This document shows positions 9,071 through 43,189 of a DNA stretch of 64,000 nt, piece by piece. The notes under the pieces are model-generated. The model saw only the letters and a program-made list of their open reading frames with translations, did not search any database and was not told the origin of the DNA. This DNA comes from Burkholderiales bacterium 8X (GTDB lineage: Bacteria; Pseudomonadota; Gammaproteobacteria; Burkholderiales; Burkholderiaceae_C): positions 3,186,916 through 3,250,915 of the forward strand of contig LR732703.1 of NCBI GenBank assembly GCA_902506565.1. The letters run 5' to 3'. The translations under genes and the position numbers were made by a program. Numbering within the stretch: the stretch's first letter is position 1; every line of letters begins with the position of its first letter.

Positions 9071-10111
9071 TCAGGCCAGCAGTTTCAGTTCACGCAGGAA
9101 TGCGCGTTGGGATTCCGCCGCCTGTTTGGCGAGCGCGCCCTTAGCGGCCCATTCGTCGACCACGCCTTGGGCGATCTGGCGTGCGCGAGTCAGGTCAGTC
9201 TCCGACCACGCCACCAGTTCAACACCCTTCTTCTGAACTTCTGCGGCGACTCGCTTGTCGTTTTCCGCTATGCGATTCACCTGGGTTGTCGAAAACTCGC
9301 GCCAGGTGCGCTCCAGTATCTGTTTAACATCTTCGGGCAGGCCCTTCCAGGCACTGGCATTGACCGTGAAATCCTGGATGGGCATTGAGTGAAAGCCGGG
9401 GAAAGTCGCGAACTTGGCAACCTCGAAGAAGCCAACTTTGGCATTCACTGAGATCGTGGACCAATCGACGCTGTCGACAATGCCTTTTTCAATGGCAGAG
9501 TAAGCCTCTCCTCCTGGCAAGACGACGATGGATGCGCCCATCTTGGCAATGGTTTCTGCAGCGATGCCCTGGGCGCCGCGATGTTTGATGCCCTTGAAAT
9601 CTTCAGGACGTCGAATGGGTTTTTTCGACGTGAGGGATTCCACGCCCCACCAGGTCGCGCCCACGGTGTAGGCGTTGAAACGCTGGTACGCCTTGCGCAG
9701 CATCTCCAAGCCGCCTTTTTCGTATAACCATCGGTTTTGTTGCTCCGGCGTGCGGTAGCCGAAAGCGAAGTCCCCGATGACTGCCAGCGCTGGCTCCTTA
9801 CCCGCCCAATAGCCGGGGTAAGTAGATTGCCCTTGGAGCACGTTTTGGTTGACTGCATCCAGAGTTTCGAAGGCGCCCACCACGGCTCCGGCGGCAAAGG
9901 TCTGAATTTCGAGCCGACCGCCTGTGTTCACTTTCACCTTCTCGGCGAACTCCTCAAAGTATTTGAAGGTGTCTTCGCCCGCGCCCCAGAGGGTCTGAAC
10001 CCGCCACCTGGTCGCCTTCTGGCCAAGCACGATCGCGGGCATTCCGGCGATCAATGCGGTAGACGATGCGGCGACGGCCTGCAGAACTCGGCGTCGGTGA
10101 AAAGTTGTCAT
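9071..10111 (-). CDS. dctP: TRAP transporter substrate-binding protein
   Basis: Periplasmic receptor of the TRAP importer, 346 residues. The N-terminus MTTFHRRRVLQAVAASSTAL resembles a twin-arginine-like export signal (HRRRVLQ followed by a hydrophobic stretch ending near AGMPAIVLGQ). The receptor domain shows VQTLWGAGEDTFKYFEEFAE, the conserved IKHRGAQGIAAETIAKMGA with the ligand-pairing Arg, and GGEAYSAIEKGIVDSVDW. The last motif is typical of the DctP group that binds mannitol/chloroaromatic or keto acids, so a bulky acid is as likely as a C4-dicarboxylate. It is the first structural gene after the GntR regulator, separated by a 93 bp gap with a palindrome. Confidence 0.9.
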   Translation of the reverse strand: MTTFHRRRVLQAVAASSTALIAGMPAIVLGQKATRWRVQTLWGAGEDTFKYFEEFAEKVKVNTGGRLEIQTFAAGAVVGAFETLDAVNQNVLQGQSTYPGYWAGKEPALAVIGDFAFGYRTPEQQNRWLYEKGGLEMLRKAYQRFNAYTVGATWWGVESLTSKKPIRRPEDFKGIKHRGAQGIAAETIAKMGASIVVLPGGEAYSAIEKGIVDSVDWSTISVNAKVGFFEVAKFATFPGFHSMPIQDFTVNASAWKGLPEDVKQILERTWREFSTTQVNRIAENDKRVAAEVQKKGVELVAWSETDLTRARQIAQGVVDEWAAKGALAKQAAESQRAFLRELKLLA

Positions 10112-10141
10112 TTTGTCTCCGGGTTAAAAGTGTAGATCCTC

Positions 10142-10160
10142 TGGCATATTTGAAATACCA
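10142..10160. promoter_or_regulatory. Inverted repeat, possible GntR operator upstream of dctP
   Basis: TGGCATATTTGAAATACCA has arms TGGCAT/ATACCA with one mismatch, in the TGGTAT/ATACCA style of many FCD-type GntR sites. It lies 31 bp before the dctP start. The right half, GAAATACCA, recurs at 10905-10913, just upstream of the gntR gene itself, which is what an autoregulated local regulator would show. Confidence 0.5.
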
Positions 10161-10182
10161 GCAGTAATATATTAGATAGGCT

Positions 10183-10201
10183 AAAAAAAACCATCGGGTT
10201 T
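10183..10201 (-). terminator. Weak hairpin with T-run after the GntR gene
   Basis: Read on the minus strand, the stem AAACC-CGAT-GGTTT is followed by more T residues (a run of eight A on the plus strand, 10183-10190). It lies 4 bp beyond the end of the GntR gene and before dctP. The stem is short and AT-rich, so termination is likely partial, letting some transcription reach the TRAP operon. Confidence 0.4.
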
Positions 10202-10204
10202 CCC

Positions 10205-10885
10205 CTACCTACCAGTCATGTGGCTGCTGCCTAGTAAGTTTCTGGTGAATTGCTCGGCGATGTCACTGACGTTGTCGCAGTGCAGCGCAACCTGCGCTTC
10301 ATCGCGGGCGACGATCGCGCGTGTGAGTGCGGCATGTGCCGGACCAACCACAGGGAGGTTATTGAATGCGCGGTGATGGGCAAAGTAGAACCGCTGTGAC
10401 ATCGTGTGCAGCGGGCGCAGTGCACGAGCAGCAAACCTGTTCCGCGCACACTGTGCAACAAACCGTTTGATTTGAAAGTGAAACTGCAGGTAAGACTCAG
10501 CCTGCTGTGACTCACCGGCATGTTGGATGCCATCTGCCATTTCCAGGAGCTGTCTACGTTCGCTGTCCGTACATCGTACGGATGCACGCGCCGACACCAA
10601 TTTTTCCAACACCCGGCGCGCGTCCAGTACCGCCATTTGATCTTCAACGGAGATTTCGCTCACCACGATCCCTGCGCGTCGAATTACGGTTACGAGGCCG
10701 TCCAACGCCATGCTTGCAACCGCTTCGCGAACCGGCGTGCGGCCTATGTCAAGAAGCTCGCTAAGAGAGCCTTCGGTCCAGACGGAACCCGGAGCTAGGA
10801 CTAGTGTTACGAACCGCGCTTCCAATTCCCTGCGCGCCTTGTCGACCAAGGACGTAGCTGGATTGAAGTGGAGATCCTCACGCAT
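10205..10885 (-). CDS. GntR-family transcriptional regulator (FadR/FCD subfamily)
   Basis: A 226-residue regulator. The winged helix-turn-helix spans roughly residues 25-75 (LSELLDIGRTPVREAVASMA, then LDGLVTVIRRAGIVVSEIS), followed by an all-helical FCD ligand-binding domain with DARRVLEKLVSARASVRCTD, HFQIKRFVAQCARN and a late HAALTRAIVARDEAQVALHCDN. The His and Asp/Glu residues of the FCD metal site are plausible at these positions. It is the most upstream gene of the TRAP-catabolic operon, with the same GAAATACCA half-site upstream of itself and of dctP, so it probably represses the operon until the imported acid binds. Confidence 0.9.
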   Translation of the reverse strand: MREDLHFNPATSLVDKARRELEARFVTLVLAPGSVWTEGSLSELLDIGRTPVREAVASMALDGLVTVIRRAGIVVSEISVEDQMAVLDARRVLEKLVSARASVRCTDSERRQLLEMADGIQHAGESQQAESYLQFHFQIKRFVAQCARNRFAARALRPLHTMSQRFYFAHHRAFNNLPVVGPAHAALTRAIVARDEAQVALHCDNVSDIAEQFTRNLLGSSHMTGR

Positions 10886-12097: not shown

Positions 12098-12499
12098 ATG
12101 ACGGTGTGCGTATTCTGCGGAATCAAATTCGCTCCTCGTGTTCAGAGCCGTAATCAATCGTACTGCGGAAGCGACGCTTGCCAGCGGGAAAGAAGAAGAG
12201 CTTGGCAACAGAGAAAGCGTGAGCTCGACCCTGATTACGGGGAGAACCAAGCGAAAGCTCAGCAACAGTGGACGCTAAAGAATCCGGACTACTGGAAGCA
12301 CTACAGAAAGCGCCAAGCAGAGCAAAGCAAACAGACCCAATCAAACCGGCGGACACATAAAAAGAGTGACTCCTGCAATATTGGCGCACCCCCCAGCGGG
12401 TTATATCTGTTAGTGCCATATTCCGCTGATGGCGCCGGAACCTCGTGGATAGTTCACCTCTCTCTGATCGAGCCTTCGACCGTCACTCTTGAGCGATAA
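12098..12499 (+). CDS. Small Cys-rich, basic protein (possible zinc-binding), first gene of the recombinase cassette
   Basis: A 133-residue protein opening with C4-x2-C7 and C23-x4-C28 (VCVFCG... and SYCGSDACQ), a pattern suited to one zinc ion. A strongly basic, aromatic stretch follows (RRRAWQQRKREL, DPDYGENQAKAQQQW, NPDYWKHYRKRQ) that could contact DNA. A good ribosome-binding site (AGGAGGG) lies 6 bases before the ATG. The last 40 residues are of different composition. It precedes the serine recombinase gene by 68 bp or overlaps it, depending on the recombinase start. From memory, proteins of this kind accompany recombinase-ParB pairs in other bacteria; its role there is not established to my knowledge. 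Confidence 0.75.
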   Translation: MTVCVFCGIKFAPRVQSRNQSYCGSDACQRERRRAWQQRKRELDPDYGENQAKAQQQWTLKNPDYWKHYRKRQAEQSKQTQSNRRTHKKSDSCNIGAPPSGLYLLVPYSADGAGTSWIVHLSLIEPSTVTLER

Positions 12500-12566
12500 G
12501 AGAGGATGCGATGGGAAGCAGCCTGTTGCCCTGCTACCGTTCGGATTCCACCGAATCTGGCGTGCT

Positions 12567-14129
12567 ATGACAGACGAGACTCACGGATTGCAAGCAACCC
12601 TTCACGCGAAGCCGCGCGCGGTGGCCTACGTGCGGATGTCTACAGAACACCAGCAATATTCAACCGAGAACCAGCTTGATCGCATTAAAGAGTATGCCCT
12701 TAAACGAGGTGTTGAGCTTGTGCAAACCTTCACCGATGCCGGCAAGAGCGGCTTGCGCATTGACGGCCGGACTGGTCTGCAGAAGCTTTTGAGCATCGTC
12801 CAATCTGGGCAGGCCGACTTCTCGATGATTCTCGCGTACGACGTGAGTCGATGGGGTCGCTTTCAAGATGCTGACGAAAGTGCGTATTACGAGTACATTT
12901 GCCGAAAAGCCGGAATTCAGGTCGCATACTGCGCGGAGCAATTTGAGAACGATGGCTCTCCGATTTCAACCATTGTTAAGGGCGTTAAGCGTGCAATGGC
13001 CGGCGAGTACAGCCGAGAACTTTCGGCGAAGGTTTTTGCAGGACAGTGCCGCTTGGTTGAACTCGGTTTTCGCCAAGGAGGGCTGGCTGGTTATGGATTC
13101 AGGCGGATGTTGCTTGATCAAGCCGGCCAGGAGAAAGGGCAGTTGTCGACTGGTCAGATGAAAAGTCTGCAAACAGATCGAGTTGTGCTCGTTTCCGGGC
13201 CGGACGATGAAGTAGCAGTAATAAAAGAAATTTATGACTTGTTTATCGATAAGTCGATGAGTGAACATTCGATCGCCGAGTTCTTGAATAGTTCAGGCAG
13301 ACGTACCCAACTTGGACGTAAGTGGTCGCGCGGCACCGTTCATGAAGTTCTCACAAATGAGAAGTACATCGGCAGCAACGTTTATAACCGCGTCTCGTTC
13401 AAACTAAAAAAAGCTCGGATCGAAAACGACCCGGAAATGTGGATACGTCGACCAGAGGCGTTTCCCGCTTTGGTTCCGTCTGCGAGGTTTTATCTTGCGC
13501 AGGGTATTATTCGCGCTCGTTCCCGACGGCTTACGGACGCCGATCTGATTGAGCACCTGAAGGCCTTGTACGAAAGGCGCGGATATCTTTCGGGCTTAGT
13601 GATCGACGAGGCAGAAGGCATGCCGTCTTCTACGGTTTACGCTAACCGGTTCGGCAGCTTGCTACGTGCATATCACGCGGTCGGCTTCTTGCCAAGTCGA
13701 AACTACGCCTATATCGAAATCAATCGGGTGTTACGACGCATGCATCCAAACGTTGTGCAAGAAGTCGAAGCCGGCATGAGCGCAGGAGGGTCTAATTTAA
13801 TGCAGGACCCGTCTTCAGATTTAATCTCGGTTAACGGCGAATTCACTACATCCATTACACTTGCGCGATCACGCCGAACCTCCACTGGCGCGCTGCGGTG
13901 GCGACTGAGGTTTGATACAGGGCTAAGACCAGATGTCACCGTCGCCGTTCGCATGAACGAAGCCAACTCGGCAGCACGCGACTACTACCTGTTTCCTCGA
14001 GTAGTCATGGAGCCAGGAAACGTGAACCTTGCTGAACAAAATGCAATAGAGCTTGAATCGTTTCGCTTGGACAGTCTTGATTACTTTTATAAGCTTGCCG
14101 CCCGTACGCGGTGGAGGAAAGTAGCATGA
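12567..14129 (+). CDS. Serine recombinase (resolvase/large-serine-integrase type)
   Basis: A 520-residue site-specific recombinase acting by serine-linked strand exchange. The catalytic serine is in AVAYVRMSTEHQQYSTENQ (S25 from the chosen start). Active-site arginines are plausible in LAYDVSRWGRFQD and KGVKRAMAGEYSRELSAKVF, followed by the recombinase domain (GYGFRRML...) and a segment NEKYIGSNVYNRVSFKLKKA typical of the Recombinase Pfam domain. The zinc-ribbon Cys set of large integrases is not evident. Instead the C-terminus (LRWRLRFDTGLRPDVTVAVR) is unusual. An in-frame TTG at 12489 would add 26 residues. The stop overlaps the next gene as ATGA, so expression is coupled to the ParB-like genes. 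Confidence 0.88.
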   Translation: MTDETHGLQATLHAKPRAVAYVRMSTEHQQYSTENQLDRIKEYALKRGVELVQTFTDAGKSGLRIDGRTGLQKLLSIVQSGQADFSMILAYDVSRWGRFQDADESAYYEYICRKAGIQVAYCAEQFENDGSPISTIVKGVKRAMAGEYSRELSAKVFAGQCRLVELGFRQGGLAGYGFRRMLLDQAGQEKGQLSTGQMKSLQTDRVVLVSGPDDEVAVIKEIYDLFIDKSMSEHSIAEFLNSSGRRTQLGRKWSRGTVHEVLTNEKYIGSNVYNRVSFKLKKARIENDPEMWIRRPEAFPALVPSARFYLAQGIIRARSRRLTDADLIEHLKALYERRGYLSGLVIDEAEGMPSSTVYANRFGSLLRAYHAVGFLPSRNYAYIEINRVLRRMHPNVVQEVEAGMSAGGSNLMQDPSSDLISVNGEFTTSITLARSRRTSTGALRWRLRFDTGLRPDVTVAVRMNEANSAARDYYLFPRVVMEPGNVNLAEQNAIELESFRLDSLDYFYKLAARTRWRKVA

Positions 14130-15025
14130 GGAACGCCACTGAGATCCGGGTAATTCAAGTAAGTCTAGTCGACGTCTTAAACCCTCGCTCCCGAAACGCC
14201 GATGCTTTCAATGGAATTATAGAAAACATTCGTTTAGTTGGATTGAAAAAGCCCATCAGCGTCACGCCCAGAACGGTCGACGGGGTTCCGCGTTTTACGC
14301 TAATTTGCGGTGAAGGGAGGCTACTGGCATTCAAAGCTTTGGGTCAAAGGGAAATCCCCGCTAGAATTATTGACGCGACCGACGAAGAGTCATTTGTGAT
14401 GAGCCTAGTCGAGAACATTGCGCGAAGAAAATACACTCCGCTAGAGCTGCTTGACGGTGTTAAGCGCCTTCTAATCGCAGGTAAATCGCTAGAAGACATC
14501 GCAGCGAAGACCGGCTTAACTTATTCATATGTCCGAGATATCAATTTCCTCCTAAACAAGGGCGAAGAGCGCTTGGTGTCTGCAGTCAAGAGCGGCACCC
14601 TTCCGATCAAAGCGGCGATCGACATCGTTTCTGCTGGGGAAGACAGCAAAGCGATTCAGAACAGCCTTCAACAAGCCTACGACACCGGTCAGCTCAGGGG
14701 GAGACAACTTTTTGACGCGCGCCGGCTTATTGAGAAGCGGAGGCACATGGGCAAGTCATTCTCTGCGCATGGCGGCCCGCACAACAGTTCAGACCACATT
14801 TCGGCAAATAGCCTCGTCCGTGCTTTCCGCAAAGAGGTAGCAAGGCAAGAATCCCTCGTACGACGCGCGCACGCAGTGCAAAGGGATTTATTATTCATCG
14901 TTGGGGCATTGCGAACTTTAGCAGGTGATGATAATTTTTGCACTCTGCTTAGAGCTGAAGGTCTCGATACCTTGCCAAAATTCTTAGCTGATCGGCTTTT
15001 GGCGGCAATTGAGGTTCGATCATGA
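14126..15025 (+). CDS. ParB N-terminal-domain protein (RepB-like), first of two
   Basis: A 299-residue ParB/RepB-type DNA-binding protein. The ATG at 14126 overlaps the recombinase stop and follows a strong GGAGGAAA site. ParB elements in order: GLKKPISVTPR, the CTP-motif region CGEGRLLAFKALG (canonical GERR is GEGR here), SLVENIARRKYTPLELLDG, and a helix-turn-helix KSLEDIAAKTGLTYSYVRDI. The C-terminal half (helical, SLVRAFRKEVARQESLV) resembles plasmid RepB C-terminal domains. No ParA partner is present, so it is unlikely to act in ordinary partition. With the recombinase it may control recombination direction, site pairing or element maintenance. Confidence 0.82.
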   Translation: MRNATEIRVIQVSLVDVLNPRSRNADAFNGIIENIRLVGLKKPISVTPRTVDGVPRFTLICGEGRLLAFKALGQREIPARIIDATDEESFVMSLVENIARRKYTPLELLDGVKRLLIAGKSLEDIAAKTGLTYSYVRDINFLLNKGEERLVSAVKSGTLPIKAAIDIVSAGEDSKAIQNSLQQAYDTGQLRGRQLFDARRLIEKRRHMGKSFSAHGGPHNSSDHISANSLVRAFRKEVARQESLVRRAHAVQRDLLFIVGALRTLAGDDNFCTLLRAEGLDTLPKFLADRLLAAIEVRS

Positions 15026-15882
15026 AAGTCGCAATAGGTTTCAGTCTCGAGCCCGTCGACTTGCCACTCAACAAGTTGCTGCCCACGAAAAAGATTATTA
15101 GGCGTCTTGAAGAGACGTCGAAGTTCGCACAAATTCGAGCGTCAATTCAAGAGATTGACTTGATTGAACCGTTGACGATTACTGCAGAAGATCCGACGAC
15201 TGGTGCACATCATCTGCTTGATGGCCACATTCGTTTGCTTGTATTGCGCGAGCTTGGTCGGACTTCAGCTCCATGTTTGATCGCCGTCGACGACGAAAGC
15301 TACACATACAACAACCAAATAAATCGTATAACTGCGATCCAAGAGCACTACATGATTCGCCGGGCGATCGAACGAGGTGTGTCGCCTGAACGGCTGGCAA
15401 GCACGTTGAACGTAAACGTAAACCTCATTAAGGCGAAGAAAGCCCTCTTAGACGGCATCTGTGCAGAAGCGGTTCAAGCTTTACAGGACAGGCAATTCTC
15501 TCCGCAAGTCGCCTCCACACTTCGACAAATGAAGCCTATGCGACAGCTTGAATGTATTGATTTGATGATTGCGGCGAACAACCTTACGGTCAATTATGCA
15601 AAAGCCTTGTTGCTTGCCTCCTCGGAAGATGCGCTACTCACAATCAAGAAAAAGCCGAGAGCGATTGGGAGTGATCAAGTTGGGCTCATGGAGCGTGAGA
15701 TGTCTAACGTTCACGAGCAATACCGCTTGGCAGAGGAGTCATATGGGGAGGACGTACTGCACTTAGTATTTGCACAGGGCTATCTATCGAAGCTGGTTGG
15801 TAACGAAGCCGTGTTCAGCTACTTACGCGCCAACCATTCCGATGTTGTTGAACATATCGCGCGGATCTTAAAGAGGATCTAG
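15022..15882 (+). CDS. Second ParB/RepB-like protein
   Basis: A 286-residue relative of the preceding gene, its ATG overlapping that stop codon (ATGA, 15022-15025). It has the ParB fold order LIEPLTITAEDPTTG, LLDGHIRLLVLRELG (the GERR CTP motif is replaced by DGHIR, so CTP binding is doubtful), NRITAIQEHYMIRRAIERG, then a helix-turn-helix-like SPERLASTLNVNVNLIKAKK and the RepB-like helical part (LRQMKPMRQLECIDLMIAAN). Two unequal ParB paralogs after a serine recombinase suggest a heterodimer or division of labour, one with and one without an intact nucleotide motif. No terminator is evident after it. Confidence 0.8.
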   Translation: MKVAIGFSLEPVDLPLNKLLPTKKIIRRLEETSKFAQIRASIQEIDLIEPLTITAEDPTTGAHHLLDGHIRLLVLRELGRTSAPCLIAVDDESYTYNNQINRITAIQEHYMIRRAIERGVSPERLASTLNVNVNLIKAKKALLDGICAEAVQALQDRQFSPQVASTLRQMKPMRQLECIDLMIAANNLTVNYAKALLLASSEDALLTIKKKPRAIGSDQVGLMEREMSNVHEQYRLAEESYGEDVLHLVFAQGYLSKLVGNEAVFSYLRANHSDVVEHIARILKRI

Positions 15883-36663: not shown

Positions 36664-37659
36664 ATGACTTCAAATATTAAGAACCCTGGCGGTGTCCTAG
36701 TACGCGTGTTGCGAGCCATTGACGGCTTTCACCGAGCGCACGGCTTCTTTCCCAGCATCGTGGAAGCGCCGCAAGAGGTGATCGACGATGTCCTCAACTA
36801 CTACCTTGAGCCAAAAGGCGCCGAGTTGCTACGAGAGCGGGTTGAACTACGCCCTGTGCAGCAGAACACCGTGGTAGCTTTGGGCGGGTCAGCCTCGTTT
36901 GAATACTCGGCTGGTGCCGATCCACTAAGTACGCCAGCGGTTGCTCGCGCATGGATTGGACTGGATGACAGCCCGTGGGCTGAGGTGCCGATGCTCGCGC
37001 GGCCAGCGGTGCTGCCGCTCAAACCGCTTGAGGTCTCCTCCCAAATCGTTTACGTGCTCACCAACCCTGCGATGCCAGGTTTGGTGAAGGTTGGGAAGAC
37101 GACCCAAATGGAAGTCGAGGCGCGGATGAAGCAGCTTTTTGGTACTGGCGTACCAGTGCCCTTTGACTGTGCGTTCGCTTGCCAGGTGAAAGACGCGCAT
37201 GAAGTCGAAAAGGCGCTTCACTTCGCCTTCGGCAATGCTCGCATTAACCCGAATCGCGAGTTCTTCAAGATCGAGCCTGAGCGAGTAATTGCAGTGCTTA
37301 AATTGCTTAAGGTAGACGATGTGACCATGCAGGTGGAGCAGCAGATCGAAGCGGAGGTAACGACCGTCGACAAGCAATCCGCGCAGCAGATGAAGGATCG
37401 CCGACCGCACATGCGCTTCTACGAACTCGGCATTCCGCAAGGCTCCACCCTCTTGTTCAAGGACGGGGGGGCACAAGCGACCGTCGTTGAGGACCGCAAG
37501 GTGATATTTCAGGATGAAGTGCAGTCGCTGACTTCAGCCACGCGGAAAGTGCTCGGCCTCGCTGACGACTACCCCCTGCAGCCGTCGCCGTACTGGCTGT
37601 TCAACGGTACGAGCGTCAAGGCGCTGTACGAGGCATTCCACAATTCGGACCCAGAGTAG
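36664..37659 (+). CDS. GIY-YIG (T5orf172-type) nuclease with RAMA-like C-terminal domain
   Basis: A 331-residue protein, start MTSNIKNPGGVLVRVLRAID at 36664 (an upstream ATG at 36532 is less likely). In the middle is the GIY-YIG core: IVYVLTNPAMPGLVKVGKT (GIY and YIG equivalents), the catalytic Arg in VEARMKQLFGTG, and HFAFGNARINPNREFFKIEP with the His/Glu. The C-terminal segment (MRFYELGIPQGSTLLFKDGG, QATVVEDRKVIFQDE, then SATRKVLGL) resembles RAMA domains linked to restriction and adenine methylation. It is convergent with the D12 methyltransferase operon 600 bp away. A modification-dependent or modification-sensitive restriction role is an inference. Confidence 0.78.
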   Translation: MTSNIKNPGGVLVRVLRAIDGFHRAHGFFPSIVEAPQEVIDDVLNYYLEPKGAELLRERVELRPVQQNTVVALGGSASFEYSAGADPLSTPAVARAWIGLDDSPWAEVPMLARPAVLPLKPLEVSSQIVYVLTNPAMPGLVKVGKTTQMEVEARMKQLFGTGVPVPFDCAFACQVKDAHEVEKALHFAFGNARINPNREFFKIEPERVIAVLKLLKVDDVTMQVEQQIEAEVTTVDKQSAQQMKDRRPHMRFYELGIPQGSTLLFKDGGAQATVVEDRKVIFQDEVQSLTSATRKVLGLADDYPLQPSPYWLFNGTSVKALYEAFHNSDPE

Positions 37660-38274
37660 GCAACCAATCTGGATTGCCCCAAACTGTGCGGAGCTCCTGG
37701 TCCCTGGTAGCGCGCTTTGCACCGCCTTCAGCGTTGATCCTGGCGAACTTACAGCGGCTGTTCACTGAGCGGACTTCATAGACAAGTTCGCACTGCTGAT
37801 CGTGTTCCCGGCGGTCGAGTTTGAACAACGAAGAAATGCAGGTCGAGAGTGCCCGCGATGCAGCGATCGCGGTCCCTCGCCGATAGACGCGCGGTTCCTG
37901 GCCGGGGTTCAATTGCTGTCACTGCGGTCATTGCGCCGCCTTGACCTGCAAAAGCAAGAACGCTTGCAACGGAGCGGAGGCAGGCACATAGCGCGAGCTT
38001 GGGAACGCTTTGTCAAACGTGCCGAGCGTCCGGCAAATGCGGCAGATTAACTGGGCGCAATACTCGGCGCCCTCGACGGCTTAAAACGGGCTTAGCATCG
38101 CTTCCAGCTAAAGGAAGGGCGGTGACAGCATCGACGGTGGTGCGAACGGCAGCCCTGATCAAAGTCGTGGTAGCGCTCAGCGTCGCAAACGCTACTGTCG
38201 AGATGCTTAATTCACTGACGGCGAAATGAATACCGAGCAGTCAGCGACGCGGGCACAACTACTGCAGCGCGCGA
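37660..38274. other. Region between the GIY-YIG gene and the methyltransferase, no supported gene
   Basis: Short frames only. A plus-strand frame at 37802-38050 contains a single CPRC pair (ECPRCSDRGPSP) that hints at a zinc-ribbon of a decayed transposase, but the rest does not match anything I can name. Both genes on either side are convergent, so the region should hold their transcript ends; no strong terminator hairpin was seen. Confidence 0.3.
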
Positions 38275-39444
38275 TCAGACTCGGAAGCAAGCGATACTTT
38301 CGATGCAGGCCTTTCTTCCGCCTCTGCTCGCCGCCGAGCCACCAAGTGTGCTGAAGGTAGAGCTGACTTCATAAACTTCGATTGACGCGAATTTTCCAGT
38401 GCCTAGCCGAACGAAATCAGCGGTAGTTAAGCCATTACTCGCCCCCTCCGAAGGAAATGTAAGCACAAGACTGACCTGCTGGGTAGCACACCCATCAACT
38501 AGTGCGCGAGCAGCACTGTGGGCTTCGCCCTTCCGACTAAACGAAGATCCTGGCCGCTCAGACAGCGGCGGGTAACGTCCCACGCCAGTTACTGTCACCT
38601 CGAAGCCGCGGGCGAGAGTCTCCAAGACATGATAAAAGCGACTGTAATGAACATCAGAGTATGGAGGATCTGCAAACACTAGATCGCCCGGCTCTAGGTT
38701 TCGAATGCAATCTTGGTAGTCGCCGACCAAAGCTTTCCCTTTAGTCTGCGCATGAGCGCAAGCGACTGAGCGAAGCGCCTGAGCAGTCAAATCCCAAACG
38801 TCTCGATCCCAAGCTTCCACGATGAAACGAGCAGCAGTGTCCGTCGGCTGAAAAGGCTGGGCAGTGTGCCCAGGAGAGGCAGCGCAACGGCTCGCCGCTT
38901 CGACAAGAGCCGCGATGCACGCATTGCTCTCCGCAATCGAACTTGGGACTGTTTGGCGCAGGGCGTCGAGTTCAAGCGCCTGCATCGGCGAGAAATAGTG
39001 CCCCCCGTACGCTATGGTCATGGGGAATTCACCTCCGAGGTTATCGAGCAAAGATGGCAGGACAGAATGGCAAAACTTTCGAGACCGCACGACTAATGAC
39101 CGAATGCGCGTAGCGATCGTCAAATCGGGCTGAATAGACCGACTCGAATTAGGAAAGTGAACAACAATAGAATTGACGACTTTCCTCGCTGCCTGGAACC
39201 AAGTGCGAATGATCGAATCTGCATCAAGCACGATTGTTCGCTCCACGACGGCCGCAGCCCTTGCTGCAGCGAACGACTGAAGGTCACTGGAAAAGATTGC
39301 TTTGCTTGTCGACTGAGCTAGAAACCAAGACACTGCACCTGAGCCGCAAAATGGGTCAGCCACCCGACGAGCATTGACACTTTCGCATTTCAGGATCTCC
39401 CCAAGTACCGGCAGCAGCTTACCCTTGTGCCCCATGTACTTCAT
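38275..39444 (-). CDS. D12-class N6-adenine DNA methyltransferase
   Basis: A 389-residue DNA adenine methyltransferase that would protect or mark a recognition site. The N-terminal MKYMGHKGKLLPVLG matches the K-Y-x-G-x-K opening of D12 enzymes; SAM motif I is ADPFCGSGAVSWFLA (residues 29-43), and catalytic motif IV is DPPY at residues 259-262 (LVFADPPYSDVHYSRFYHVL). Between them is a target-recognition insert of about 200 residues. The ATG at 39444 overlaps the upstream stop codon by ATGA. It is the third gene of a coupled operon with the 441-residue and DGQHR proteins. The target site is unknown. Confidence 0.88.
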   Translation of the reverse strand: MKYMGHKGKLLPVLGEILKCESVNARRVADPFCGSGAVSWFLAQSTSKAIFSSDLQSFAAARAAAVVERTIVLDADSIIRTWFQAARKVVNSIVVHFPNSSRSIQPDLTIATRIRSLVVRSRKFCHSVLPSLLDNLGGEFPMTIAYGGHYFSPMQALELDALRQTVPSSIAESNACIAALVEAASRCAASPGHTAQPFQPTDTAARFIVEAWDRDVWDLTAQALRSVACAHAQTKGKALVGDYQDCIRNLEPGDLVFADPPYSDVHYSRFYHVLETLARGFEVTVTGVGRYPPLSERPGSSFSRKGEAHSAARALVDGCATQQVSLVLTFPSEGASNGLTTADFVRLGTGKFASIEVYEVSSTFSTLGGSAASRGGRKACIESIACFRV

Positions 39445-40766
39445 GCAACAAGTCCCCAAGCGATGCACGCGTCGGGCCGAGCGAGCCGTGCTGAGCGCGA
39501 GACGTTGGCGGCATCCCAAAAAGATTGAGGATACGGCGGATTCAAAGTGAATTCATCAACCGCAATGCGATAGTCTTCCTCTAAATCGAAAAGTGCTACC
39601 GCGGCAGTGGGTGACCAGATTCCTGCATGAGATAACCAGTTTTCCATCCATTGCTTTGCGGCGGTGTTTGTTGCAGCGCTAATGCTCATTTTAGAAGCGC
39701 TCATTGCCATACGCAGCAAGAAAAATCCGCGGCACACCACGTTTCCTACGTTGGTAGCCGAAGCGGCAGCAAGTGCGAAGGGAACGCTCGGATAGGCTGT
39801 GTGATTAAGCCGGCGCAGTATGTCGAACTCACTTGCTCCCGTATTTGCTGCAATGCTAATCGCGACGTCGTTGAGCTGCTCGTTAAAGGTTGGCTTTTCG
39901 GCAGCTTGGCTCTGAGAGATTAATTTTGGAACTGCGTCTGCAACAATGTAGTTGATAAGGGCTGCGTCGAATGCGAGGGAGGTACCATCGCTCAAGAAGA
40001 GCCTCCAGATGTCCAGGATCAGCTGAGCGTCTGGCGTCGTCATAGGCAAGAGAGGCTTTGCAGCCAACCCTGCTTCATAGCTCGCGTTATTACGCGCAAA
40101 GTGATCACGGGAAGGGTCCCATAAGTCGAGTCCCCAACTAGCGAGGGTCGCACTCGCGTTGACGTATTGTACGCTTGACAATACATGCCCCAAGTTTACC
40201 GAGGGGAGTAGCTTTATCTGCTCGTTGAAAAGCCTTTTGGCATCGGAGCGATGAACCCATTGATTCCATAGTCCCCAGACTGCATCATGGGTTTTTTGAG
40301 GGGACACCGCTTGCCTCAAGCCTTTGCTATCGAGATAATAAAACCCATTCCTCTTCACTCGGATCCCACTCCACGCGAACAAGGACATCGCCGCGCGTAG
40401 CTCCGCATAGTATGCGAGATGAAGAGCCTGACCATTTGCGTGATTCAGCATAGCGCTCGTAGCAGCGGCAGCATAGCGCCACCCTTCGATGAGATGCACC
40501 AACTGCTCTGCAGCCAACACCGCCTGAGGACTAGCCCCCGCAGCCGGTATCAGTAGATCGCTAATGTTGTTAATCGGACCGAGAGAGCTCAGGCCTCGGA
40601 GAGTCCCGGCCCCGTCCGACAAAGTGCATATATCCGTGCACCACTTAGTAAACGCGGCCTGGGTTGGCGTATGTCTATTCGCTCGCCGTGCTGAGTGGGC
40701 GGATTTGGGCGTAGATCCGCGCTTTGCGGATTTAGAAGCGCCGCCGCGCTGTTTTCCGATGTTCAT
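39441..40766 (-). CDS. Unrecognised 441-residue protein between a DGQHR protein and a DNA methyltransferase
   Basis: I do not recognise the family. The first 35 residues are basic and Ser/Gly/Thr-rich (MNIGKQRGGASKSAKRGSTP), suggesting nucleic-acid contact. The rest is mainly alpha-helical with many Ala and aromatic residues: AAEQLVHLIEGWRYAAAATS, AYYAELRAAMSLFAWSG, NQWVHRSDAKRLFNEQ and VKRNGFYYLDSKG. No nuclease, helicase or methylase motif is visible, and no signal or membrane segment. ATGA overlaps at both ends (with the DGQHR gene at 40763-40766 and with the methyltransferase at 39441-39444) indicate fixed stoichiometry or complex formation. Confidence 0.75.
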   Translation of the reverse strand: MNIGKQRGGASKSAKRGSTPKSAHSARRANRHTPTQAAFTKWCTDICTLSDGAGTLRGLSSLGPINNISDLLIPAAGASPQAVLAAEQLVHLIEGWRYAAAATSAMLNHANGQALHLAYYAELRAAMSLFAWSGIRVKRNGFYYLDSKGLRQAVSPQKTHDAVWGLWNQWVHRSDAKRLFNEQIKLLPSVNLGHVLSSVQYVNASATLASWGLDLWDPSRDHFARNNASYEAGLAAKPLLPMTTPDAQLILDIWRLFLSDGTSLAFDAALINYIVADAVPKLISQSQAAEKPTFNEQLNDVAISIAANTGASEFDILRRLNHTAYPSVPFALAAASATNVGNVVCRGFFLLRMAMSASKMSISAATNTAAKQWMENWLSHAGIWSPTAAVALFDLEEDYRIAVDEFTLNPPYPQSFWDAANVSRSARLARPDACIAWGLVA

Positions 40767-42397
40767 CGGCCAAGTAGCCCCGCGGCCAATTTTGCCGCTT
40801 CAGCAATTTGCTTGTTTTTTCCTTGCTGAAGTGATTCCAAGCACTTCGATTGAAGCATTGAATAACCACTGCTGCCGCGAAATGCAGCTTGCGCCTGCTT
40901 CTCATCATTCGAGAGGCTTCGCGAAGATGACGTGCGCCAGTCCACTCCATCAATTAGCCCAATCGCGACGGCCTGAAGAAACTTATTGGCACTGGACATT
41001 TCAGAAAATTCTTCCAGCGCATCAGAGACGTCTTCGTCTTCTGGCGAGTCGGAGACTCGATCCGATTCCCAGGTTTCAAGCTCGATATCGGAGTAGACCA
41101 CTTGGCAAAGTGCATTGAACACAACCAAAACCGATCTCGCCCCCTGATCGGTGCCAAGCAGAGTTGTGTTTCCCGCAAATGCAGCATGCAGACCGTGAGG
41201 ATTAGTTTGCCTTTGTTCCTGAAGCGGTTTGGATCGAAAGTCATTAGCACAACCTTTGATCCATTCGGCGTTGGAGTTTTCGACTGCGTCGTGCACATAC
41301 TTCCAACAAGCAATCAGGAAAGCAGCCTGCTGCGATCGCTTCCATGGAAGGATGCGCTCGGTAGCATCTCGATCAATAGATCCAAAAAGGCCGCCGATCC
41401 GATTTTCGCTGCCCCAGCGACGGACGAAGCTAGCCATAAGGGACCGAATGAACGCCGCATTTGATACATGGCCATCCACACGATTGCCGTGCAGCTCGAT
41501 ACGATCCCGCCAAGGACTCTGCTCATGGCGCCAGAGGACTTCGGTGAGCTCTTGCGCACGATGCTCTTGATAGACCTTTATTGTCTCGCCGCTTTCGAGC
41601 CAACTTTGGCTCCGAAGTTCGGGATACAGGTCATATGCAAGGCTGGGATTGATTTTCTTTGGTTCAACATTGATGACCCAGAACAGGTACGCCTGCCAAG
41701 ATTCAGTGAGACCGTTAAAAAATACCACTGGAACTTCGTAGTCTTCACCAAGGCCAAACATCCCCATTTCGTCAGTTGCAAACAGCCGGTGCTGGCCATC
41801 TATGATCTCAATGGGCTCCAAACTCGATTGAGGAATCTGAAAGTTGCTTTCGGTCGCGCCTGCAGGGATGCTTAGAAAGTAGCCCGACTTATCCTTCTCG
41901 ACGGATACCCCGTATCCGTCGCTAACGCCAAGGAGCTTGCCCGCTCGGCGACGCTTATCACTGGATCCGATGACATTAACCAAAATGGAGGTAGGCAGCC
42001 AGCCTGGATGAATCAGCTTAGGATGCTCCGATGCGTTCAGCGAAGGCTGGCTCGAAAGGGGATAGCCGTACTGTAAGTATCGAGCGATGCTTTTCGACCT
42101 ATCTGCTTGGTGAGCGCGCTGGTATCCCGCTCCACGGCCGCCATGCCTGCGTTCCTTCACTTGCCGACGGCTTACGCCCGCCAGACGGCGCAACGTGGAT
42201 AACGCAATGGACCCGATGAAGAACAGTTTAGACGGTTCGGGTAAGTCTGGCGGCGACCACTCCGCTTCGTCCCATGAGGGCAACCATTGAGAAACCTTCA
42301 AGAGTGGTATGCGGACGTGGTCGGTCATTTGTTCGTATGCTTTCAATGAATCCTGGGCGCGGCTGTACGGCATCCTCCAGCAGGCAGTGTGTAACAT
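40763..42397 (-). CDS. DGQHR-domain protein (DndB-like)
   Basis: A 544-residue protein with the defining motif IEIIDGQHRLFA (DGQHR at residues 200-204) preceded by AGYQRAHQADRSKSIARYLQ, the R/Y-x-I-x-x-Y-L element of DndB/DGQHR proteins. The centre (WQAYLFWVINVEPKKINPSL) is the conserved INxxxxxIxP-like segment. These proteins, ParB-fold relatives, regulate or take part in DNA modification systems such as phosphorothioation. No DndCDE or DpdA genes are present; instead it opens an operon with a 441-residue protein and a D12 methyltransferase. An ATG at 42328 (MTDHVRIPLLKVSQWLPSW) is an equally good start, giving 521 residues. Confidence 0.85.
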   Translation of the reverse strand: MLHTACWRMPYSRAQDSLKAYEQMTDHVRIPLLKVSQWLPSWDEAEWSPPDLPEPSKLFFIGSIALSTLRRLAGVSRRQVKERRHGGRGAGYQRAHQADRSKSIARYLQYGYPLSSQPSLNASEHPKLIHPGWLPTSILVNVIGSSDKRRRAGKLLGVSDGYGVSVEKDKSGYFLSIPAGATESNFQIPQSSLEPIEIIDGQHRLFATDEMGMFGLGEDYEVPVVFFNGLTESWQAYLFWVINVEPKKINPSLAYDLYPELRSQSWLESGETIKVYQEHRAQELTEVLWRHEQSPWRDRIELHGNRVDGHVSNAAFIRSLMASFVRRWGSENRIGGLFGSIDRDATERILPWKRSQQAAFLIACWKYVHDAVENSNAEWIKGCANDFRSKPLQEQRQTNPHGLHAAFAGNTTLLGTDQGARSVLVVFNALCQVVYSDIELETWESDRVSDSPEDEDVSDALEEFSEMSSANKFLQAVAIGLIDGVDWRTSSSRSLSNDEKQAQAAFRGSSGYSMLQSKCLESLQQGKNKQIAEAAKLAAGLLGR

Positions 42398-42632: not shown

Positions 42633-42901
42633 TCAGCGATTGGCCAGGTTGAGATGCACTTTCTCGGAAAGCCGGCGCTCGGATCGAATGCCCATGCAGT
42701 GCCCGATCACGAGCATGCGAATCATGAGTTCGGGGGCGATGGATGGCCGGCCGGTGTGGCTGTAGAACGGCGCCAGATGTTGGCGCAGTTCTCCAAGGTC
42801 GAGGAACCGGTCCGCGCCTCGCAGGAGGTGATCGTGCGGACGTGATCTTCGAGGTTGAATGCGTACAACAGTTGATCCTGAACGATGCTCTGACTCCTCA
42901 T
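42633..42901 (-). pseudogene. IS1182/IS5-type transposase, N-terminal remnant
   Basis: Reading from the ATG at 42901: MRSQSIVQDQLLYAFNLEDHV, then after a one-base loss near 42838 PHDHLLRGADRFLDLGELRQ, HLAPFYSHTGRPSIAPELMI, and SERRLSEKVHLNLANR, the conserved start of a DDE transposase. A TGA replaces the Trp codon expected after LNLANR, and the frame continues only briefly (FCYVGLGD) before losing similarity. Frameshift, nonsense codon and truncation make it inactive. It sits between the modification island and the tRNA-Lys fragment. Confidence 0.82.
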
Positions 42902-43144
42902 GATGCGGACCTCCATTTTGATGAGGAGCGGCACGCAAACAGCGCGCCAGTTCCCAGGAACTTGGGCAGTTTTTCAACACAATCAGCCTGAAGCGAACAC
43001 CCGCGCTATCGCGGGCCCGATGCAAGGGGAAGGTTCCGTTCGCAACTGCGCACCTTGGCTCGCTTGGCCTATTCCGAGGTTGATCCGCGCACGACTCTCC
43101 TATACTCAAGGCTCCGCAAGAATACGCAGCGCCTCGGGAACGCT
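42902..43144. other. Short region between the IS remnant and the tRNA fragment
   Basis: No supported gene. A plus-strand frame at 43055 reads SEVDPRTTLLYSRLRKNTQR, faintly like the C-terminal tyrosine box of phage-type integrases, but too short to call. If real, it would be the decayed end of the integrase that used the adjacent tRNA site. Confidence 0.25.
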
Positions 43145-43189
43145 CTCTTAATCCGTAGGTCGAGTGTTCGAGTCACTCAGGGCCCACCA
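43145..43189 (+). tRNA. 3' part of tRNA-Lys(CTT), probable right attachment site of a genomic island
   Basis: From the anticodon loop CTCTTAA (43145-43151, anticodon CTT) the sequence continues as AATCCG, variable loop TAGGTC, T-arm GAGTG-TTCGAGT-CACTC (43162-43178), acceptor strand AGGGCCC and ACCA (to 43189). The 5' half (acceptor, D-arm and anticodon 5' strand) is missing: upstream bases do not pair with CCG or AGGGCCC. A tRNA cut exactly at the anticodon loop is the expected scar of integrase-mediated insertion, the intact copy lying at the other island end. A rho-independent terminator follows 22 bp downstream, consistent with this having been the native tRNA locus. Confidence 0.75.

Follow-up and report, generated by a model that had tools for sequence, protein, structure and literature searches.

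A recurrent DGQHR-MID gene pair with exchangeable DNA-modification genes forms a candidate mobile defense cassette in Burkholderiales bacterium 8X

Gene organization of the cassette

Why does a DNA methyltransferase gene overlap with the gene of an unrecognized helical protein, which in turn overlaps with a gene of the DGQHR family? This question is raised by three minus-strand genes in the genome of Burkholderiales bacterium 8X (GCA_902506565.1). They are located in a stretch of 64,000 nucleotides (nt) of contig LR732703.1 (positions 3,186,916 to 3,250,915), which is called the window in the following and to which coordinates refer if not stated otherwise. Gene 1 (40763..42328) encodes the DGQHR protein P0001, gene 2 (39441..40766) a protein of 441 residues named MID (P0002) and gene 3 (38275..39444) a D12-class N6-adenine DNA methyltransferase (P0003). 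All three reading frames described in the first-pass annotation of this DNA, as well as the methyltransferase motifs DPFCGSG and DPPY, were found intact. Both joints were read on the coding strand as ATGA stop/start overlaps (40763..40766 and 39441..39444; TCAT on the plus strand). We interpret this cassette as a mobile, modification-coupled candidate defense system and rate this interpretation slightly above even, at a probability of roughly 0.55. The DGQHR protein would serve as a nucleoside triphosphatase (NTPase) switch, MID as a HEPN effector and the methyltransferase as the self-mark. These roles of sensor, effector and self-mark are proposed because of the analogy with DndI and with the arrangement of DUF262 and HEPN genes.

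The DGQHR gene probably starts with the ATG at 42328 and not at 42397, to which the mechanically called open reading frame (ORF) extends, since its relatives begin at the residue corresponding to M24 of the long ORF. Residues 1-10 of the long ORF have a predicted local distance difference test score (pLDDT) below 50. P0001 exceeds the cut-off of the DGQHR family TIGR03187 (76.7 vs. 58.85 bits) and P0003 that of MethyltransfD12 (PF02086; 55.8 vs. 22 bits, 7e-15), so that both proteins had been named correctly, the latter also by its DPPY and DPFCGSG-type motifs.

Recurrence of the DGQHR-MID pair

For identification of related loci, we used an alignment of three DGQHR proteins as query; neither MID nor the methyltransferase served as bait. 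The first scan covered 84,980 species with one genome each, from which the best 80 of 97 confirmed loci were kept, and the second scan covered IMG/VR and yielded at least nine loci. The analysis thus revealed at least 89 loci by the DGQHR protein alone (80 from genomes and 9 from IMG/VR). They are distributed over Pseudomonadota, Actinomycetota, Bacteroidota, Chloroflexota, Cyanobacteriota, Verrucomicrobiota, Planctomycetota, Spirochaetota, Campylobacterota and other phyla, and many of the carrier genomes are metagenome-assembled. Two loci are archaeal and belong to Methanoregula, so that the pair is also present in this methanogen genus.

A MID homolog is located 3' of the DGQHR gene and on the same strand in all 87 loci whose contig runs more than 65 nt past the DGQHR gene, including L075, in which MID is cut by the contig end. 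This count is not circular, because the hidden Markov model used for finding MID was built from three sequences only (window, L002 and L003). The distance between the two genes lies between -200 and +50 nt in 85 of the 87 loci, with -4 and -1 as the commonest values. The two outliers are L032 (234 nt) and L091 (2,236 nt, DGQHR gene broken). In the broken copy of L091 (6626-10357) the DGQHR gene is interrupted about 2.2 kb before MID. A DGQHR gene split between two frames was found in L112 (6332-7851). The data show that DGQHR and MID form a near-obligate adjacent gene pair.

Searches from the other members of the cassette gave a similar picture. A tblastn search of 72,556 plasmids with P0002 matched only Rhizobium tumorigenes and four Zymomonas records, and the DGQHR query matched the same 5 of 72,556 records. 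The two plasmid loci which were opened are annotated in the order DGQHR, hypothetical protein, adenine methyltransferase. Profile searches with MID outside the window revealed six viral loci and two genomes; four of the six viral contigs were already contained in the IMG/VR scan with DGQHR. At seven of these eight loci a DGQHR gene adjoins MID, in one case split between frames, and at the eighth MID is truncated and a D12 gene is adjacent. A scan anchored on the methyltransferase found the whole trio in four of four viral loci, one of them on a new contig. In single-sequence searches with MID none of the viral contigs was matched, compared with six in the later profile scan, and among 250 genomes of the order only that of the window was found. 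The Rhizobium DGQHR protein had no match in 50,697 phage records.

In the first-pass annotation, the three genes and a convergent GIY-YIG gene were proposed to form one modification-restriction system. For the three genes this is supported, as they form one modification-linked unit: their order recurs more often than expected by chance, in plasmids, in prophage-like contigs and in many bacterial phyla, and the 441-residue protein matches no housekeeping family. The GIY-YIG gene probably does not belong to this unit, as described below.

Exchange of the modification gene

In addition, we analyzed which modification genes accompany the pair. Five loci with a contig end next to the pair (L012, L019, L059, L067 and L075) were left out, so that 84 of the 89 loci are informative. 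A modification gene is present in 82 of them. D12 methyltransferases predominate (71 of 84) and occur as large 3' (47), small 3' (14) or small convergent genes (4) or on the 5' side (6). The remaining loci carry an N6_N4 methyltransferase (6), an MT-A70 methyltransferase (1), phosphorothioation-type genes (4, two of them weak) or no recognized modification gene (2). A further MT-A70 case was found in one additional genome from the MID-profile search. The window and L002-L092 together contain 74 detected D12 ORFs, 73 of which belong to the 1,094 selected locus ORFs, and each of the 74 lies within 100 nt of the pair.

The phosphorothioation-type loci bear on a further statement of the first-pass annotation, namely that the usual Dnd, Dpd or BREX partners are lacking. 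It holds for DndC in the genome of the window, where TIGR03183 gave no match at E≤0.001 (Dpd and BREX were not searched genome-wide), but not for other genomes, in which the same pair lies among phosphorothioation genes. In Pseudanabaena (L022), DndC and DndD exceed the NCBIfam cut-offs, and dnd_assoc_4 and dnd_restrict_1 genes are also found around the pair. L021 was assigned to this class by its similarity to L022. In both loci a dnd_assoc_4-type gene adjoins the pair and DndC is 0.5-3.7 kb away.

On a tree of the DGQHR proteins (91 rows) the class of the modification gene changes at least 15 times if its position is ignored, L033 is counted as N6_N4 and L067 is left out. The number is 14 without the two weak phosphorothioation loci and 5 if large and small D12 genes are merged. 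A first count, in which upstream D12 genes were a state of their own, gave 16 changes compared with a mean of 32 after shuffling, and in this count the well-supported branches alone force eight changes for large D12 and seven for small D12 genes. The tree is a quick tree based on a simpler model, in which two long branches meet. L091 was omitted due to its broken DGQHR gene, and loci without a modification gene were given no state. L033 was scored as "none" in the first count and later as N6/N4, and L067, with a doubtful N6/N4 gene 2.5 kb upstream, was used in the first count only. Since the class switches about 15 times, the enzyme is the exchangeable part of the cassette and the DGQHR-MID pair its constant core; the modification gene was repeatedly swapped while the pair stayed.

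Several loci show further peculiarities. In five Bacteroidota (L064, L069, L074, L077 and L082) the DGQHR protein has about 200 extra N-terminal residues and the methyltransferase gene lies upstream. Large DndB/DGQHR proteins adjoin the D12 gene in two Bacteroidota (L064:2725-5028 and L066:10681-13053). Their N-terminus weakly matches an Hjc-like nuclease, and near the C-terminus there is an RRxxxH or RNxxxH motif, which looks like a fused HEPN domain by its motif, with no HEPN match in Pfam. In L039 (790-5021) a PRTase-CE/winged helix-turn-helix gene and a reverse transcriptase gene are located upstream of the pair.

Predicted fold and conserved residues of MID

What is the function of the second protein of the pair? 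At E≤1, P0002 is matched by no family of Pfam, PADLOC or NCBIfam. Among 86 members of the MID family, no Pfam family occurs in more than two, and neither HEPN nor a recurrent endonuclease family is found among the matches listed; four PADLOC families match one member each (E 7e-4 or worse), and PHROGs gave no match at E≤0.01. NCBIfam was searched with P0002 only. The alignment of the family was made without L012, L067 and L075 (no or partial MID), L032 (short), L002 and L003. The predicted model of MID (pLDDT 90.7) has its best fold match in the HEPN protein AF_0298 (2hsb) with Z 9.1 over 121 of 126 residues and a root-mean-square deviation of 2.9, followed by a next row of 4.4. A fold search in viral structures found nothing at E≤0.001.

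The conserved residues are in agreement with a variant of this fold. R225 and H160 are present in 86 of 86 members, N226 in 83 and E122 in 79. R225 is located near the end of helix 218-230, E122 in helix 111-132 and H160 between these two helices; the helix numbering is our reading of the model. In HEPN domains the Rx4-6H motif was described at the end of helix 3, some families having lost the histidine, and the conserved acid, when present, lies in helix 2 (PMC3710099). For the AF0298-type, the same source describes that the arginine is kept, the motif histidine is typically absent and an alternative conserved histidine is found in the insert which separates helix 2 from helix 3 (PMC3710099). 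MID shows this AF0298/AbiV-type pattern, with the arginine kept, the motif histidine absent and H160 in the stretch 133-217. A TH pair was found in the helix 2-3 insert of 11 of 13 PF05168 stretches compared, and MID has T159-H160. For this comparison 25 PF05168 loci were fetched, which gave 15 clean stretches; 13 were used after removal of L143, which is partial, and of L136, which nearly duplicates L133. Another candidate, the MAE_28990 family of HEPN proteins (PF18737), was rejected, as P0002 does not match it and hhalign gave 0.1%, which is not significant. Judged from the predicted model, MID quite probably represents a HEPN domain interrupted by large inserts; this assignment is not confirmed by sequence profiles.

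The nature of MID also bears on another explanation, in which the cassette is a DNA-cutting restriction-modification system: MID, or the ParB-fold DGQHR protein, would cleave unmodified DNA and the methyltransferase would protect the own DNA. This is consistent with a methyltransferase in an operon with two conserved partners. Furthermore, nuclease activity was reported for members of the ParB superfamily (PMC10853773), and DndI, which has a related NTPase domain, nicks DNA (PMC11662687). However, neither P0001 nor P0002 is matched at E≤1 by an endonuclease family of Pfam, PADLOC or NCBIfam, and no such family is recurrent in the 86 MID members. The HEPN-like fold and residues of MID would rather point to an RNA substrate. 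In addition, the restriction partner would have to follow each new methyltransferase specificity through several enzyme classes. Restriction by DNA cleavage seems unlikely.

Predicted fold of the DGQHR protein

The motif DGQHR, residues 200-204 of the long ORF, is invariant in all 83 aligned sequences. L012, L064, L069, L074, L077, L082 and L091 (too short, too long or broken), as well as L002 and L003, were not part of this alignment. Besides the match to TIGR03187, P0001 lies just below the cut-off of Pfam DndB (PF14072; 27.2 vs. 29.1 bits) and below those of DGQHR_dnd_1 (TIGR04172; 54.2 vs. 450 bits) and of the DpdB equivalog NF041060 (31.4 vs. 300 bits). A fold search with the predicted model (pLDDT 90.2) returned ParB, PadC and Noc in its first ten rows with Z 5.4-6.6, several of them nucleotide-bound; SspE reached 3.5. 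The protein resembles a ParB/CTPase-like fold according to this model; the Z values are modest, whereas the matches are uniform and in line with the DGQHR family. It can be described as ParB/sulfiredoxin-fold and NTPase-like. A relationship to DUF262 was tested and rejected: hhalign was not significant and only the DGQHR-like motif aligns. Neither GmrSD_N (DUF262) nor HNH matches P0001-P0003 in Pfam at E≤1, and a sequence search of the PDB with the DGQHR and MID profiles gave no match at E≤1.

A DndB-like protein of ParB-type fold was described to bind ATP/GTP (PMC12704722), and DndB is reported to be an ATP-dependent repressor (PMC10853773, PMC12704722). By this precedent, and since P0001 resembles TIGR04172 and DndB below their cut-offs, the DGQHR protein might repress or tune its modification operon with MID as an accessory, and the cassette would then be a unit of epigenetic control and not of defense. 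Such a regulatory unit leaves the invariant, catalytic-looking residues of MID, the swapped enzyme classes and the carriage on mobile elements unexplained, and we regard it as very unlikely.

Genomic island and mobility

The cassette probably lies at the right end of a genomic island, as is suggested by an exact repeat of tRNA-Lys and by an integrase at the tRNA gene. The 3' end of tRNA-Lys(CTT) is duplicated over 45 nt at 43145..43189 on the plus strand, and this copy represents an att-like repeat. The intact tRNA-Lys(CTT) gene is found about 63 kb upstream of this repeat on the same contig (contig positions 3167191-3167266) and is adjoined by a phage-type integrase gene. The cassette thus looks like the end of an island of about 63 kb which is inserted in tRNA-Lys. 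Between the cassette and the island edge, a transposase remnant (42636..43109, minus strand; PF05598 DUF772) is the only recognized feature. Integrase genes were also found beside or near the cassette in all four viral contigs checked (L086, L095, L096 and L147).

Carriage on a tRNA island, on plasmids and on predicted viral contigs would also be expected of an addiction module similar to toxin-antitoxin systems. MID would be a HEPN toxin which is blocked as long as the modification persists, and the cassette would maintain its element rather than defend the cell against phages. HEPN domains were described as common toxins (PMC3710099). A two-gene toxin pair needs no DNA-modification enzyme, yet nearly every locus has one. 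The anatomy of an addiction module is the same as that of the proposed defense system, which makes the two hard to separate by sequence; we consider addiction as the main function quite unlikely.

Two further observations concern mobile elements. A low-G+C block of the same island (window 12489-15882) contains a large serine recombinase gene and two RepB/ParB-type genes and is possibly a second integrated element. On the Zymomonas plasmid (L003:11857-13580) the cassette is followed by a gene pair annotated as DUF4433 and macro-domain, which we take to resemble the DarTG toxin-antitoxin system.

The convergent GIY-YIG gene

The fourth gene of the original proposal (P0004, 36664..37659, plus strand) converges on the trio. 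Its ORF and its T5orf172-type GIY-YIG identity were found as described (T5orf172, 4e-17), and it also matches the PADLOC candidate family PDC-S57 (3e-79). A RAMA-like tail could not be recovered in Pfam at E≤1. As a fourth component of the cassette it was rejected. The 3,338 ORFs of the trio loci contain no homolog of P0004 at E≤0.01 other than P0004 itself. In plasmids 15 relatives were found (E≤1e-10), all of them in records other than the five which carry the pair. Because of this distribution, it is probably a separate gene of the same island, perhaps a putative defense gene itself.

Proposed mechanism

By analogy with the systems compared below, the following course of events can be assumed. 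The methyltransferase would mark the DNA of the own cell. The DGQHR protein would bind and hydrolyze a nucleoside triphosphate and thereby tell marked from unmarked DNA. On marked DNA it would hold MID silent, a HEPN-type nuclease and probably an RNase. Unmarked invading DNA, or a failure of self-marking, would release MID, and infected cells might stop growing or die before phages are released. In this scheme the chemical nature of the mark, the nucleotide used, RNA as the target and a protection against phages are inferred.

Several results weigh against the proposed defense function or its parts. The family is rare: samples of 369 and 398 genomes contained two carriers each, and each of these counts includes the genome of the window. 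With Foldseek, neither the DGQHR nor the MID model had a match in the PDB at E≤0.001, and Z values below 8, or below about 13 for helical proteins, can represent a common arrangement according to the fold-search tool. The R[NDH]x4-6H motif is incomplete in MID (R225-N226-x-x-S-Y230), as tyrosine replaces the histidine. Comparison of the whole MID alignment with PF05168-type HEPN profiles by hhalign gave 0.1%, which is not significant. With the inserts cut out, the score was 18.3 with 2% probability, which is not taken as proof because the segments were chosen by us; two other core constructs in which more of the insert was kept reached about 10, a value in the range of four controls (9.9-11.9). 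Two informative loci (L013 and L039) carry no recognized modification gene. D12 genes are not exclusive to the cassette either, as a longer fetch of the viral contig L146 contains a second one (9653-10426) about 4 kb away. Of the four phosphorothioation assignments two are weak, L065 being a partial IscS-like cysteine desulfurase and L079 consisting of matches below the NCBIfam cut-offs. Finally, the repressor role of DndB makes a purely regulatory role of the DGQHR protein possible.

If the proposed defense function is correct, the cassette would tie the self-marking of DNA to an RNase effector, with a nucleotide switch as the link between them. It would also explain how one sensor-effector pair works with many modification enzymes, and it proposes a function for the conserved MID family, for which neither Pfam nor PADLOC nor PHROGs yielded a recurrent match. 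As the three genes fit on one plasmid, the role of the DGQHR protein becomes directly testable. More tentatively, and with the odds rather against it, DGQHR and MID might represent a new class of immunity, in which a ParB-type NTPase reads the modification status of DNA and turns it into RNA cutting and growth arrest. The pair would then be a general alarm for unmarked DNA which can be plugged into D12, N6/N4, MT-A70 or even phosphorothioation enzymes.

Comparison with known systems

We found no description of the three-gene set in the open-licence literature searched; subscription papers and bioRxiv lie outside this scope and may hold one. The type II restriction-modification systems with D12 enzymes resemble the cassette in that an adenine methyltransferase shares its operon with conserved partners, but the cassette has no recognizable restriction endonuclease and instead a two-protein partner of new composition. 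With the Dpd deazaguanine modification system the cassette shares the DGQHR domain, present there in DpdB, from which P0001 differs by its low score (31.4 vs. 300 bits). The same domain connects it to DndB and the Dnd system, and in Pseudanabaena the same pair stands amid DndC, DndD, dnd_assoc_4 and dnd_restrict_1; in contrast, P0001 remains below the DndB and DGQHR_dnd_1 cut-offs and its own genome has no DndC match.

Operons of DUF262 and MAE_28990 HEPN genes are arranged in a similar way. This HEPN family, which is named in one paper only of the literature searched, was reported to share operons with ParB genes and methylase genes (Anantharaman et al., 2013, PMC3710099). In all five examined loci above the cut-off (L114-L118) we found a GmrSD_N (DUF262) gene directly 5' of the MAE_28990-type HEPN gene, and one of them has an adjacent C5 methyltransferase. 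As in the cassette, a ParB-like gene adjoins a HEPN gene, sometimes together with a methyltransferase, but the ParB-like family is DUF262 and not DGQHR, and the HEPN family is another than that of MID.

The most similar logic is that of DndI, SspE and GmrSD, which combine a DUF262 "DGQQR" NTPase with HNH. In DndI, the DGQQR ATPase domain was described to sense phosphorothioate-marked self-DNA, ATP hydrolysis favoring dissociation from such DNA, and cells which lack the mark suffer from the toxicity of DndI (PMC11662687). The mark thus spares the own DNA and unmarked cells are harmed, according to the same source (PMC11662687). P0001 differs from these proteins by the lack of a GmrSD_N or HNH match; the putative effector of the cassette is HEPN-like and a protein of its own, and the mark is usually set by an adenine methyltransferase and not by phosphorothioation. 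Common to both are a ParB-like NTPase, a DGQxR motif and the link to DNA modification. The parts of the cassette and its general logic have precedents.

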